Shown here piece after piece: positions 23,116-27,282 of a DNA stretch of 64,000 nucleotides. Source of the stretch: Gemmatirosa kalamazoonensis. Its GTDB lineage: Bacteria; Gemmatimonadota; Gemmatimonadetes; Gemmatimonadales; Gemmatimonadaceae. Under the pieces are notes generated by a model. That model was not told the DNA's origin and did no database searches. It saw only the letters and a list, made by a program, of their open reading frames with translations. Each line of letters begins with the position of its first letter. The stretch's first letter is position 1. The translations under genes and the position numbers were made by a program. Location of the stretch: assembly GCF_000522985.1 (NCBI RefSeq), contig NZ_CP007128.1, positions 5,130,220 to 5,194,219 on the forward strand, given 5' to 3'.

Positions 23116-23808
23116 ATGCCCACTCCGCACGGCTTCCTCCGAGTCGCGCCGGCGATCCTCGGGCTCGCCCTCGCGACGACACCGCTCCCCGTGCTCGCCC
23201 AGGCCACCGTCGCCGGGCGCGTGACGGTGCTGGAGCGCGCCGGCGCGCGCACGGACGACCTCGAGAACGCCGTCCTGTGGCTCGAGCCGCTCGACGCGCC
23301 GCGGGCCGCCGCGCCGACGGCGACGGAGATCGTCATGGAGGCGCGCCGATTCCGGCCCGCCGTGCGCGTCGTGCCGCCGGGCAGCCAGGTGCGGTTCGCG
23401 AACTACGACCCGTTCCGCCACAACGTGTTCTCCGACGCGGGACCGGGCCGCTTCGACCTCGGCCTCTACGGCCGCGGCCAGAGCCGCTCGGCCAATGTGG
23501 ACGCGGCGGGCGTGTACCCGGTGTTCTGTAACATCCACGCCCGCATGGTCGCCTACCTCATCGCCGTGCCGAGCCGGTGGTTCGCGCAGGCCGGGGCCGA
23601 TGGCGCCTACCAGATCGCGGACGTGCCGGCCGGGCGCTACCGGCTCCACGCGTGGCACGACCGCGGCGGCGAGGCGACGCGCGAGATCGCCGTCGCCGCG
23701 GGCCACCTCGCGACCGACGTGCAGCTCGACGCGCGCGGCTGGCGCTTCGTGCCCCACAAGAACAAGTACGGGCAGGACTATCCGCCCGAGACGCGCGACC
23801 GGTACTGA
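23116..23808 (+). CDS. Exported cupredoxin-like protein
   Basis: 230 aa from the ATG at 23116 (MPTPHGFLRVAPAI); signal peptide ending near PVLAQ. Residues about 75-150 form a plastocyanin/cupredoxin fold with a full copper ligand set: RHNVFS (His), then YPVFCNIHARM (Cys, His, Met). A second small domain (YQIADVPAGRYRLHAWHD) resembles carboxypeptidase-regulatory folds. It is probably a periplasmic copper or electron-transfer protein. Only 4 bp separate its stop from the GTG of a membrane Ser/Thr kinase, so the two are almost certainly co-translated. Confidence 0.85.
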   Translation: MPTPHGFLRVAPAILGLALATTPLPVLAQATVAGRVTVLERAGARTDDLENAVLWLEPLDAPRAAAPTATEIVMEARRFRPAVRVVPPGSQVRFANYDPFRHNVFSDAGPGRFDLGLYGRGQSRSANVDAAGVYPVFCNIHARMVAYLIAVPSRWFAQAGADGAYQIADVPAGRYRLHAWHDRGGEATREIAVAAGHLATDVQLDARGWRFVPHKNKYGQDYPPETRDRY

Positions 23809-23812
23809 CGCG

Positions 23813-25927
23813 GTGACGGAGACGCTTCCCGCGCGCGCGGCCTCTCCTTCGACCGGCTACGTCCCGCCGGCGCCCGGCGGGCGCGCGCCACGCGAGCCGC
23901 GGCCGCCCGACGCGCCGCGCCCGCGCGCACGGTCGGCGCTCGTCTGGCGCATCTTCGCCGCGGCGGCCGCGGTGGTGTGCCTGCTCGTCGCCACCGTCGT
24001 CGGCACGCTCGAGGTGTTCGCGCGCCGCACCGCGGACGCCGCGATCGCGCGCGGGCTGCACGACGCGAACAACCACGTGGAGTCGCTGCTCGACGGCCGC
24101 GCGCGGGCGCTCGCCAGCGCGGCCGAGGTGTTCGCCCAGGACTCGCACATCGGCTCCCTGCTGCTGAACGACAGCGCGAGCGCCGACCTGCTCGACCAGG
24201 CGAGCGAGGCGGCACGTCGCACGGGCGCGACGTGGGTGCAGTTCACCGACGCCGACGGCGTGCGGCTCGCGAAGAGCGACGAGCCGAGCGCGCCGCGTGT
24301 GTCGTTGGGCGCGACGGCGCTCGTCGGCGGTGCGCTCGACGGACAGAGCACGACCGGCGCGGGCGTCGCCGGCGACTCGGTCGCCATCGAGGGCGTCGCG
24401 GTGCCGGTGAGCGTCGGACCGGACAGCGCGCGGCGCATCGTCGGCGTGCTCGTCGCGGCGCGCGCGCTCGACAGCGCCGTCGTGCGCGAGCTGCACGACG
24501 CGACCGATGGCGAGGTGCTGATCTACCACCTCGACGGCGCCGGACGTCCCCGCGTCTCGGCATCGTCGCTCCCGGACGCGCAGCGCACCGCCGTGCTGCA
24601 GCGCGTGTCGGAGCGCCGCGCCGCGCACGACTCGGTCTCGGGCCTCGCGCTGCACCTCGGCGGCACGACGTTCGTCGGGCAGGAGACGCCGCTGCGCTCG
24701 GCCGGCGGCAGCGTCGAGGGAGGCGTCATCACGCTGCGCTCGCGCGATCGTGAGCTCGCGCCGTTCCTCGCGCTGCGACGCCGCGTGCTGCTCGCCGGAC
24801 TCGCGGGGCTGCTGCTGACGTTCGGCGTCGCGTATCTCGTGGCGCGGCAGATCACGCGACCCATCCTCGCGCTGCGCGACGCCGCACGCCGCGTGGCCGC
24901 GGGCGACCTCTCGGCCTCCGCCGTCGGCGTCGGGTCCACCGGCGAGGTCGCGGAGCTCGCCGACGCCGTGCGCTCGGTGCTCGATCAGGTGCAGGATCGA
25001 CACGCGCTCGCCGAGGTGGTGGAGCGCGCGCGCGCCGTGCCGCATCCGGAGACGTTAGGCAGCGGCGGCGGCGCCGTCGACGGCATCCTGGCGCCGGGCA
25101 CCGTGCTCGCCCGCCGCTACGTCATCGACAAGGTGCTCGGCGTCGGCGGAAACGGCGTCGTGTACCGCGCGTCGGACTCGGAGCTCGGCGAGACGGTCGC
25201 GATCAAGACGCTGCGACAGGAGGCCGTCGTCGGTGGCGAGCTCGCGCTCGCCCGGCTGAAGGAGGAGATCCGCCTCGCGCGCCGCATCACGCACGCCGGC
25301 GTGGTGCGCATCCACGACCTCGGCGAGGCCGACGGGGCGTACTTCGTGACGATGGAGTACGTGCCCGGGCTGTCGTTGCAGGAGCTGCTGCGCCGACTCG
25401 GCCCGCTCCCGGCGCCCGTCGTCGTCGCGTTGGGCAAGCAGCTGTGCGGCGCACTCGCCGCCGCGCACGGCCAGGGCATCATCCACCGCGACGTGAAGCC
25501 GCCGAATCTCGTCGTGCAGCCCGACGGCGCGCTGAAGGTGCTCGACTTCGGCGTCGCGCGCCTGGCCGAGCGTGTGTCCGGGCTCACGCAGACGGGGCTC
25601 GTCGTCGGCACCCCCGCCTACATGGCCCCCGAGCAGCTGCTCGACGAGCACGTCGACGCGCGCGCGGACGTCTGGTCGGTCGGCGTGGTGCTGTACGAAG
25701 CCGTCACGGGCCGGCTGCCGTACGACGCGGGGACGCCGGCGGCGCTCATCGGCCGCATCCTCACCGGCGACGCCACCGCGCCGATCGAGATCCTTCCGTC
25801 GGTTCCGGCGCCGCTCTCCGACGCGATCGCGCGGGCGCTCGCGCGCGACCCGACGCAACGCCTCTCGAGCGCGGCGGCACTGCACGAGCTGCTCGCGCGG
25901 GCCGTGCGCGGGGAGGCCCAGGGTTGA
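23813..25927 (+). CDS. Membrane Ser/Thr protein kinase with extracytoplasmic sensor and HAMP domain
   Basis: 704 aa, GTG start at 23813. Layout: Pro-rich N-terminus, membrane helix at about 41-64, an extracytoplasmic domain of about 255 aa, a second helix at about 322-345 (LLAGLAGLLLTFGVAYLVA), HAMP (ITRPILALRDAARRVAAGDL), then a kinase from about residue 432. Kinase motifs: LGVGGNGVVYRA, VAIKTL, HRDVKPPN, DFGVA and PAYMAPEQ; all catalytic residues are present. A HAMP relay feeding a eukaryotic-type kinase replaces the usual histidine kinase. The preceding cupredoxin suggests a redox or copper signal. Its stop codon overlaps the -35 box of the aroF leader promoter. Confidence 0.93.
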   Translation: MTETLPARAASPSTGYVPPAPGGRAPREPRPPDAPRPRARSALVWRIFAAAAAVVCLLVATVVGTLEVFARRTADAAIARGLHDANNHVESLLDGRARALASAAEVFAQDSHIGSLLLNDSASADLLDQASEAARRTGATWVQFTDADGVRLAKSDEPSAPRVSLGATALVGGALDGQSTTGAGVAGDSVAIEGVAVPVSVGPDSARRIVGVLVAARALDSAVVRELHDATDGEVLIYHLDGAGRPRVSASSLPDAQRTAVLQRVSERRAAHDSVSGLALHLGGTTFVGQETPLRSAGGSVEGGVITLRSRDRELAPFLALRRRVLLAGLAGLLLTFGVAYLVARQITRPILALRDAARRVAAGDLSASAVGVGSTGEVAELADAVRSVLDQVQDRHALAEVVERARAVPHPETLGSGGGAVDGILAPGTVLARRYVIDKVLGVGGNGVVYRASDSELGETVAIKTLRQEAVVGGELALARLKEEIRLARRITHAGVVRIHDLGEADGAYFVTMEYVPGLSLQELLRRLGPLPAPVVVALGKQLCGALAAAHGQGIIHRDVKPPNLVVQPDGALKVLDFGVARLAERVSGLTQTGLVVGTPAYMAPEQLLDEHVDARADVWSVGVVLYEAVTGRLPYDAGTPAALIGRILTGDATAPIEILPSVPAPLSDAIARALARDPTQRLSSAAALHELLARAVRGEAQG

Positions 25928-25953
25928 CAGGTCGTCCCGGCCGGTGCTACCGT
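25924..25953 (+). promoter_or_regulatory. Sigma-70-like promoter of the aromatic leader/aroF unit
   Basis: TTGACA at 25924-25929 is a perfect -35 box overlapping the kinase stop. An 18-bp spacer separates it from TACCGT at 25948-25953 (-10-like). Counting from the -10 box, +1 falls at about 25960, the A of the leader AUG. The transcript would therefore be leaderless at its first ORF. Confidence 0.6.
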
Positions 25954-25959
25954 GGCTCC

Positions 25960-26046
25960 ATGACGCTTCGCCGCCGCTTTTACGGCTTCCGCTATTGGTT
26001 TACGACCCGCCCCGCGGGCCGTGAGCGGAAGCGTACGCGCGACTAG
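25960..26046 (+). CDS. Aromatic amino acid leader peptide of aroF (attenuator)
   Basis: 28 aa: MTLRRR, then FYGFRYWF, then a basic tail. Codons 7-14 hold three Phe, two Tyr and one Trp, partly with the AT-rich codons TTT and TAT that are unusual in this DNA. A U-tract terminator and the DAHP synthase gene follow. Established attenuation logic (trp, phe) would have the ribosome stall on scarce charged aromatic tRNAs. Two competing pairings are visible. 25985-25993 (GCTTCCGCT) pairs with 26024-26032. 26012-26021 (CCGCGGGCCG) pairs with 26085-26094, the 5' arm of the terminator. No ribosome-binding site lies upstream, consistent with a leaderless start. Regulation is inferred; sequence and pairings are directly visible. 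Confidence 0.85.
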   Translation: MTLRRRFYGFRYWFTTRPAGRERKRTRD

Positions 26047-26082: not shown

Positions 26083-26119
26083 ACCGGCCCGCGGCTCCCG
26101 CCGCGGGCCGGTTTTTTTT
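26083..26119 (+). terminator. Rho-independent attenuator terminator before aroF
   Basis: A 12-bp perfect stem (ACCGGCCCGCGG and its complement) with a 6-nt loop is followed by eight T residues. It lies 36 bp after the leader peptide stop and about 40 bp before aroF. It is the most canonical terminator in the window. Its 5' arm is also complementary over 10 bp to part of the leader ORF. Confidence 0.92.
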
Positions 26120-26160: not shown

Positions 26161-27225
26161 ATGATCATCGTGACTCGCCCAAACATCACCGACTCCGAGC
26201 TCGACCACATCCGCGAGCGCGTGGAGGCCGCGGGACTGCGCACGCATCTCTCGCGTGGCGAGGTTCGCACGATCATCGGCTGCATCGGCGACGAGCGCCT
26301 GCTCGAGGAGGTGCCCCTGCGGTCGCTTCCTGGCGTCGAATCGGTCACGCCGGTGCTGAAGCCGTACAAGCTCGCGTCGCGCGAGTTCTCGGTGGACCGG
26401 ACGGTGGTGCGCGTCGGCGGCCAGCTCGGCGCCGACGTCGTGGCGAGCTTCGGCGACCAGGCCGTGTCGGTGATCGCCGGCCCGTGCTCGGTGGAGAACG
26501 CGGCGATGACGCGCGACACCGCGCGCATCGTGCGCGCGTCGGGCGCCGTGGCGCTGCGCGGGGGCGCGTTCAAGCCGCGCACCTCGCCGTACAGCTTCCA
26601 GGGGCTCGGCCGCGAGGGACTGGAGATCCTCGCCGACGTGCGCGCCGAGGTGGGCCTCCCGGTCGTCACCGAGGTGCTCGACGTGCGGCACATCGACATG
26701 ATCGCCGAGCACGCGGACATGATGCAGGTCGGCGCGCGCAACATGCAGAACTTCGCGCTGCTCGCCGAGCTCGGACGCGTGAAGCGTCCCGTGCTGCTGA
26801 AGCGCGGCCTGTCGGCGACGGTCGAGGAGCTGCTGATGGCCGCCGAGTACGTGATGGCGAACGGCAACCGCGACGTCGTGCTGTGCGAGCGCGGCATCCG
26901 CACCTACGAGCGCGCGACGCGCAACACGCTGGACGTGTCCGCGATCCCGGTGCTGAAGCGCGAGACGCACCTCCCCGTGATCGTCGACCCGAGCCACGCC
27001 GGCGGCACGCAGGATCTCGTCGCGCCGCTGTCGTTCGCCGCGATCGCCGCGGGCGCCGACGGTCTGATCGTCGAGGTGCACCCCGACCCGGCGTGCGCGC
27101 TCTCCGACGGGGATCAGTCGCTTCCGCCCGACGCGTTCGCGTCGCTCATGGCGCGTCTCGCCCCGTTCGTCGCCGCCGCCGGCCGCACGCTCGCGGCGCC
27201 GCGCGCCGTCGCGGCGGCCGCCTGA
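26161..27225 (+). CDS. aroF: 3-deoxy-7-phosphoheptulonate (DAHP) synthase
   Basis: 354 aa. Condenses phosphoenolpyruvate and erythrose 4-phosphate, the first step of Phe, Tyr and Trp synthesis. Residues 1-75 are a ferredoxin/ACT-like regulatory domain ([17 protein letters not shown]), as in the Thermotoga-type enzyme, where Tyr or Phe inhibits. The barrel carries [42 protein letters not shown] and [17 protein letters not shown]. There is no clear ribosome-binding site before the ATG. Together with the upstream attenuator, expression and activity are both likely under aromatic end-product control. A repeat hairpin separates it from the convergent YdcF-like gene. Confidence 0.95.
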
Positions 27226-27229
27226 CGGT

Positions 27230-27281
27230 GAGCGTGGAGCGTGGAGCGTGGAGCGCCGATGTCGCTCCACGCTCCACGCTC
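27230..27281. repeat. GTGGAGC-repeat hairpin between convergent aroF and YdcF-like genes
   Basis: Two to three GTGGAGC/GAGCGTG units (27230-27255) face their complement (CGCTCCACGCTCCACGCTC, 27263-27281) across a short loop. It fills the whole gap between the two stops, so it probably serves as a bidirectional transcript end. Confidence 0.8.
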
Positions 27282-27282
27282 G

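Follow-up and report, generated by a model that had tools for sequence, protein, structure and literature searches.

The aroF gene of Gemmatirosa kalamazoonensis is predicted to be under ribosome-mediated attenuation driven by an aromatic-rich leader peptide that is leaderless, its AUG at position 25960 being the probable 5' end of the mRNA, and we put the probability of this reading at about 88%. It is built on the geometry of the promoter relative to the leader ATG, the aromatic leader itself, an intrinsic terminator and a covarying antiterminator, all of which come from the sequence and its comparison with homologues. The arrangement is compact, about 100 bp spanning the promoter, the AUG, the sensor codons and the antiterminator arm. 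The genome analysed (7.48 Mb) belongs to the Gemmatimonadota, and coordinates refer to the window, that is, the whole stretch of 64,000 nt under analysis (C2:5130220-5194219).

The aroF locus and its predicted promoter

The elements of the locus upstream of the terminator region, together with the two genes that flank it, are the following:

23495-25927, forward strand: receptor-like Ser/Thr kinase gene, upstream of aroF
25924-25929, forward strand: -35 element TTGACA, read from the sequence; TTGAC is kept 35-36 nt before the leader ATG in homologues
25948-25953, forward strand: -10 element TACCGT (TAnnnT type), read from the sequence; TAnnnT is kept 12-13 nt before the ATG in homologues
25960, forward strand: predicted transcription start at the A of the leader AUG, from the position of the -10 element and the comparative spacing
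25960-26046, forward strand: leader ORF MTLRRRFYGFRYWFTTRPAGRERKRTRD followed by a stop, 28 codons, without Shine-Dalgarno (SD) sequence; homologous aromatic-rich leaders occur in 53 distinct regions
25978-26001, forward strand: sensor codons F-Y-G-F-R-Y-W-F, from the translation; the aromatic cluster is kept in position, not in letters
26161-27225, forward strand: aroF, DAHP (3-deoxy-7-phosphoheptulonate) synthase, type I-beta, by NCBIfam NF006421 (PRK08673) and TIGR01361

The product of aroF, the first enzyme of aromatic amino acid synthesis, scores 470.6 bits against NF006421 (cut-off 335) and also matches TIGR01361. Directly after the gene, GTGGAGC repeats (gtgagcgtggagcgtggagcgtggagcg ... 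cgctccacgctccacgctc) at 27231-27282 form an inverted repeat between aroF and a convergent gene, which is possibly terminator-like or mobile.

The two promoter hexamers are separated by a spacer of 18 nt (25930-25947), and six nucleotides (GGCTCC, 25954-25959) lie between the -10 element and the leader ATG (25960-25962). Counting with the last base of the -10 element set at -7 places +1 at 25960, so that the hexamers and the start proposed in the preliminary description proved exact in their coordinates. Between the -10 element and the aromatic codons ATG 25960 is the only in-frame start, so that transcription from this promoter could only give a leaderless leader. An in-frame TTG at 25924 was considered as an alternative start and rejected, since these bases belong to the -35 element and the region before the ATG encodes no conserved peptide. 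None of the SD-like motifs AGGA, GGAG, GAGG and AGGT is found at positions -18 to -4 before the leader ATG, and the start of aroF in the window has no obvious SD sequence either.

A generic promoter scan of the window gave no site at the leader, because TACCGT shares only three of six positions with TATAAT and the scan demands 9 of 12 for TTGACA/TATAAT. Over the 7.48 Mb of the genome the strict pattern TTGAC-N18/19-TAnnnT-N6-ATG is matched five times, and the reversed control pattern not once. Elsewhere in this genome, the stretch C2:2401334-2401371 (L131) holds a leaderless promoter whose ATG opens the gene for a predicted HTH-type transcriptional regulator, an ordinary leaderless gene.

Conservation of the promoter geometry among homologues

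Relatives of aroF came from two sources, 298 Gemmatimonadota genomes, which gave 30 loci, and genome_contigs, which gave 80 loci, other phyla being represented among the latter. The removal of duplicates left 53 distinct Gemmatimonadota upstream regions carrying an aromatic-rich short ORF, in which the leader starts were picked blind to the promoter. A recognisable leader is missing before some aroF genes of the phylum. In the 53 regions TTGAC begins 36 nt before the ATG in 16 and 35 nt before it in 8 (24 together, against a background of 0.34 per position), and TAnnnT begins 12 nt before it in 20 and 13 nt before it in 11 (31 together; background 0.48 per position). Once the leaders are aligned on the ATG, information peaks at -36/-35 (the TT of TTGAC), at -12/-11 and -7 (TAnnnT) and at -2/-1 (a pyrimidine, mostly C), with nothing SD-like among the conserved positions. 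C occupies position -1 in 39 of 52 leaders, which gives a pyrimidine at -1 and A at +1.

The promoter was also scored over the whole 450 nt upstream of aroF with a generic, untrained sigma-70 score, which placed +1 at the A of the ATG in 21 of the 53 loci and one base before it in another 16. Against these 37 loci, block-shuffled controls gave 0.61 on average and never more than 3; in 12 loci the predicted +1 was not within 2 nt of the ATG. The distance from the leader ATG to aroF varies from about 150 to 250 nt while the promoter-to-ATG geometry is kept, and the promoter thus moves with the ATG. This conserved geometry is the strongest support for a leaderless start short of transcript mapping, and by it the leader ORF of aroF is almost certainly leaderless, as the preliminary description had suggested.

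Chance coincidence of promoter and ATG, with no leader peptide made, might be suspected from the single-window view, in which the generic scan finds no site and the -10 element is a TAnnnT variant. A chance promoter is ruled out by the conservation among homologues and the shuffles, and the 53 conserved loci, the terminators, the covariation of the antiterminator and the absence of any match to reversed patterns in 298 genomes (see below) make this explanation as a whole vanishingly improbable.

A very short 5' UTR of 1-3 nt in place of a strictly bare AUG, which functionally would still be leaderless-like, is unlikely but deserves more weight. The predicted +1 lies one base before the A in 16 of the 53 loci and two or three bases before it in nine more, and several leaders (L021, L023, L025, L028 and L030) have TTGAC 2-5 nt further upstream, so that a short 5' UTR is possible there. 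The best site in the window predicts an offset of exactly 0, and the pyrimidine C at 25959 disfavours a start at that base.

The absence of a ribosome-binding site claimed in the preliminary description is supported by the homologues, where SD-like motifs are rarer than chance before the leader (3 of 53 loci; 6.7 in shuffles) and commoner than chance before aroF itself in the same loci (30 of 53; 10.8 in shuffles). For genome-wide figures, genes were called with a home-made program in stretches totalling 1.264 Mb (916 predicted gene starts). TAnnnT peaks 12 and 13 nt upstream of the start, in 25 and 18 of the 916 genes against a background of 2.4 per position, from which roughly 5% of the sampled genes would carry the leaderless -10 signature. 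In the same 1.264 Mb SD-like motifs are in excess about 9-14 nt upstream in roughly 20% of genes, and an earlier, weaker gene caller gave the same trend. This lies close to the SD use of 22% of genes published for the Gemmatimonadetes class (PMC10783764).

As few genes in this class use an SD sequence, its absence is no proof of a leaderless start, and this leaves room for a real attenuator whose main transcript comes from an upstream promoter or from read-through of the kinase gene, with a 5' UTR and SD-independent 30S initiation. The kinase gene ends right at the promoter, its stop codon (25925-25927) lying inside the -35 element, and read-through could add leadered transcripts. Against such an origin, the one promoter geometry that is both strong and conserved keeps to the ATG (0/-1) in 37 of 53 loci, and the conserved upstream bases are those of hexamers and a free spacer, not of codons or of an RNA structure. 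We regard an upstream origin as distinctly unlikely, less probable than the short 5' UTR, and retain the leaderless start as the preferred reading.

Terminator and antiterminator

Between the sensor codons and aroF the RNA may adopt two structures that share one arm:

26012-26021, forward strand: antiterminator 5' strand CCGCGGGCCG, within the leader (P-A-G-R codons), from its duplex with 26085-26094 and partial folds
26083-26119, forward strand: intrinsic terminator, a 13-bp GC stem (26083-26112) followed by a T run to 26119, -31.4 kcal/mol
26085-26094, forward strand: antiterminator 3' strand, which is the 5' arm of the terminator, CGGCCCGCGG, from duplex energies and folds

Of the 53 loci, 45 have an intrinsic terminator in the interval from the leader to aroF. 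The duplex between 26012-26021 and 26085-26094 has a calculated energy of -24.8 kcal/mol, and its 5' strand begins 10 nt past the last aromatic codon; across loci the antiterminator typically starts 10-13 nt past this codon (median 12). The front edge of a ribosome stalled at the last aromatic codon stands at about that distance. The T-G-R or S-G-x-P-G that recurs after the sensor may simply be what the antiterminator arm happens to encode.

Pairing of each leader arm with its own terminator arm averages -18.4 kcal/mol and drops to -15.7 kcal/mol when arms are swapped between loci (permutation p = 2e-4), while codon-shuffled leader tails (-13.8 kcal/mol) and an upstream control (-11.1 kcal/mol) pair more weakly still; the swap and shuffle probabilities overstate independence, since the loci share ancestry. 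The arms occur in 31 distinct combinations, in which 7.6 of 8 positions are paired, as in the examples CACGGGCC/GGCCCGTG, CGGGAGTC/GGCTCCCG, CCGCGGGC/GCCCGCGG and CCGGAGGC/GCCTCCGG.

Folds of the RNA exposed from 26008-26014 onwards give the antiterminator once the 5' arm has been made and the 3' arm of the terminator has not. The whole leader without a ribosome forms the terminator along with a self-contained hairpin. Once the terminator is complete, it is favoured at equilibrium in every fold, and the antiterminator must therefore act kinetically, as in classical models. An end-product-rich leader ORF, an intrinsic terminator and a mutually exclusive antiterminator, the features of a class I attenuator, are thus found together in sequence and folds, alongside those of a leaderless mRNA, namely a promoter geometry placing +1 at the start codon and no Shine-Dalgarno sequence. 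With terminators in 45 of 53 loci and the covarying antiterminator, the view in the preliminary description that the leader peptide belongs to an attenuator is supported, the leader probably being its sensor. None of the 4227 Rfam models, amino acid leader families included, was matched at its gathering threshold, the best sub-threshold match scoring 28.6 bits versus 112.

Actinobacterial cys leaders have no conserved terminator and Rho has been suggested for them (PMC1262725), which lends some plausibility to a switch acting through aroF translation or Rho-dependent termination instead of intrinsic termination. The 13-bp GC stem and T run found here, and terminators in most homologous loci that compete with a covarying antiterminator, make such a switch very improbable, and intrinsic termination is kept in what follows.

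Proposed mechanism

In the mechanism that we propose, transcription from the promoter with +1 at 25960 would yield an mRNA opening with the leader ORF, and a ribosome would take the bare 5' AUG as the RNA leaves RNA polymerase and translate the leader. When charged Phe, Tyr or Trp tRNAs are scarce, it would stall on FYGFRYWF with its front edge near 26011; the strand 26012-26021 would then be open to pairing with 26085-26094 as the antiterminator, and aroF would be transcribed. When aromatic amino acids are plentiful, the ribosome would continue over 26012-26046, no antiterminator would form, and the terminator at 26083-26112 would stop transcription before aroF. A leader left untranslated would fold on its own RNA, with the terminator again predicted; a productive start at the bare AUG would thus be needed for induction. 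What we infer here from the arrangement of these elements is where exactly the mRNA begins, that the leader is translated and ribosomes stall on it, in which direction regulation runs and how ribosomes are loaded.

As to ribosome loading, the dependence on 70S ribosomes put forward in the preliminary description would follow from the general literature on leaderless mRNAs, which discusses more than one route. Leaderless initiation is carried out mostly by 70S ribosomes, with initiation-factor effects that differ between mRNAs (review, PMC9031893), and a 30S/fMet-tRNA/IF2 route has also been described (PMC10783764).

Comparison with known attenuators

In the pheA and trp attenuators of E. coli the choice between terminator and antiterminator is set by stalling at codons for the end product, and their leaders have a 5' UTR and an SD sequence. 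The aroF leader differs from them in having its antiterminator arm inside the leader ORF and its AUG at the predicted +1.

A leaderless start was thought unusual for an attenuator in the preliminary description, a view that several precedents do not support. The trp attenuator RNA of Sinorhizobium meliloti starts with the ATG of trpL (PMC7298713), and trpL/rnTrpL resembles the aroF leader as a ribosome-mediated attenuator whose RNA opens at the leader ATG, with a terminator before the biosynthetic gene; it is an alphaproteobacterial tryptophan sensor before trpE(G), whereas the aroF leader, from the Gemmatimonadota, is a mixed Phe/Tyr/Trp sensor. In Streptomyces lividans leuL, trpL, ilvL, metL and thrL are leaderless leader peptides (PMC8079986), and trpL, leuL and ilvL likewise have a TAnnnT -10 and a TTGACn -35 immediately upstream of a short leaderless ORF in which the regulated amino acid is frequent; the amino acids sensed and the genes controlled are others, a clear terminator is missing from some of these leaders, and their 5' ends are mapped, whereas that of the aroF leader is predicted. 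The mycobacterial poly-Cys ORFs, leaderless according to the citations of Canestrari 2020 in PMC9031893 and PMC13236596, are also short ORFs sensing an amino acid, and the cysteine genes are described as being under translation attenuation (PMC13236596); unlike the aroF leader with its intrinsic terminator, they have no conserved terminator (PMC1262725).

The DAHP-synthase leaders of cyanobacteria (L100-L110: MFATNSYFYFWHPQVRPE and similar), with the conserved sequence M-F-x-x-N-S-Y-F-Y-F-W..., are also aromatic-rich short ORFs before the same enzyme family, but their -10-like sites lie, by eye, tens of nucleotides upstream of the ATG, so that they look leadered. They are possibly an independent attenuator for the same enzyme.

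Leaderless ribosome-mediated transcription attenuators are thus already known, and what is new is the gene, the phylum and the phylum-wide spread over several pathways. Searches of open papers, with a minority of subscription journals covered, turned up nothing on attenuators, leaderless transcripts or mapped 5' ends in Gemmatimonadota, and no ribosome profiling or reporter study for Gemmatirosa kalamazoonensis.

Predicted leaderless leaders before other biosynthetic genes

Upstream of hisG in relatives, all four His-run leaders picked by composition alone have a -10 element at the leaderless spacing. Scans of 298 genomes for the promoter-N6-ATG arrangement followed by His or Phe/Tyr runs matched 24 and 22 genomes, respectively, and reversed patterns matched none. 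Most matches are short leaders followed by a T run and a few are ordinary leaderless genes; the next genes after the leaders include hisG, hisC-like and hisN-like genes, prephenate dehydratase and phenylalanine-4-monooxygenase. Having been chosen for leaderless geometry, these matches attest the existence of such leaders but not the absence of leadered ones. No convincing leaderless leader was seen before trpE, ilvB or leuA in 25 relatives.

The composition of the leaders follows the product of the pathway, with Tyr before phenylalanine hydroxylase, which makes tyrosine, and His before hisG. The aroF leaders are Tyr-rich (166 Y, 63 F and 29 W among their aromatic residues) and the pheA leaders Phe-rich (28 F, 6 W, 6 Y). 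The terminator-swap test for hisG (own -16.6, swapped -17.0, p = 0.85) is uninformative, because nearly all hisG leaders share one terminator core.

The individual leaders observed were as follows. His-rich leaders predicted to be leaderless, with terminators, precede hisG in L230, L231, L232, L239, L266-L274, L276-L280, L282, L283 and L287, an example being MRSTLQHHHHVHHGHGPTGRGLAYVLAGA; L284 is followed by a hisC-like gene and L265 by a hisN-like gene. Phe-rich leaders, also predicted to be leaderless, precede prephenate dehydratase (pheA) in L295-L301, with terminators that were not found in L300. Tyr-rich attenuator leaders of the same predicted kind precede phenylalanine-4-hydroxylase genes in L313 and L314 (family model run on L313 only), which suggests that phenylalanine-4-hydroxylase is there a tyrosine-biosynthetic step under Tyr control.

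From these sequences leaderless entry looks like the usual design for such attenuators in the Gemmatimonadota. More tentatively, and with rather low confidence, it may be standard for those of aroF, pheA, phenylalanine-4-hydroxylase, hisG and the hisC/hisN-like genes, which would make the loading of leaderless mRNA a global input beside tRNA charging.

Biological meaning

The analysis documents amino acid attenuators on predicted leaderless leader peptides in a widespread, little-studied soil phylum and corrects the view of leaderless sensing as odd for attenuators. Whether the basal level of attenuation is set by the way ribosomes load onto a leaderless mRNA is a question for which the aroF leader offers a clean case. 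If leaderless entry is indeed standard for these attenuators, altered loading of leaderless mRNA would act on all those pathways together.
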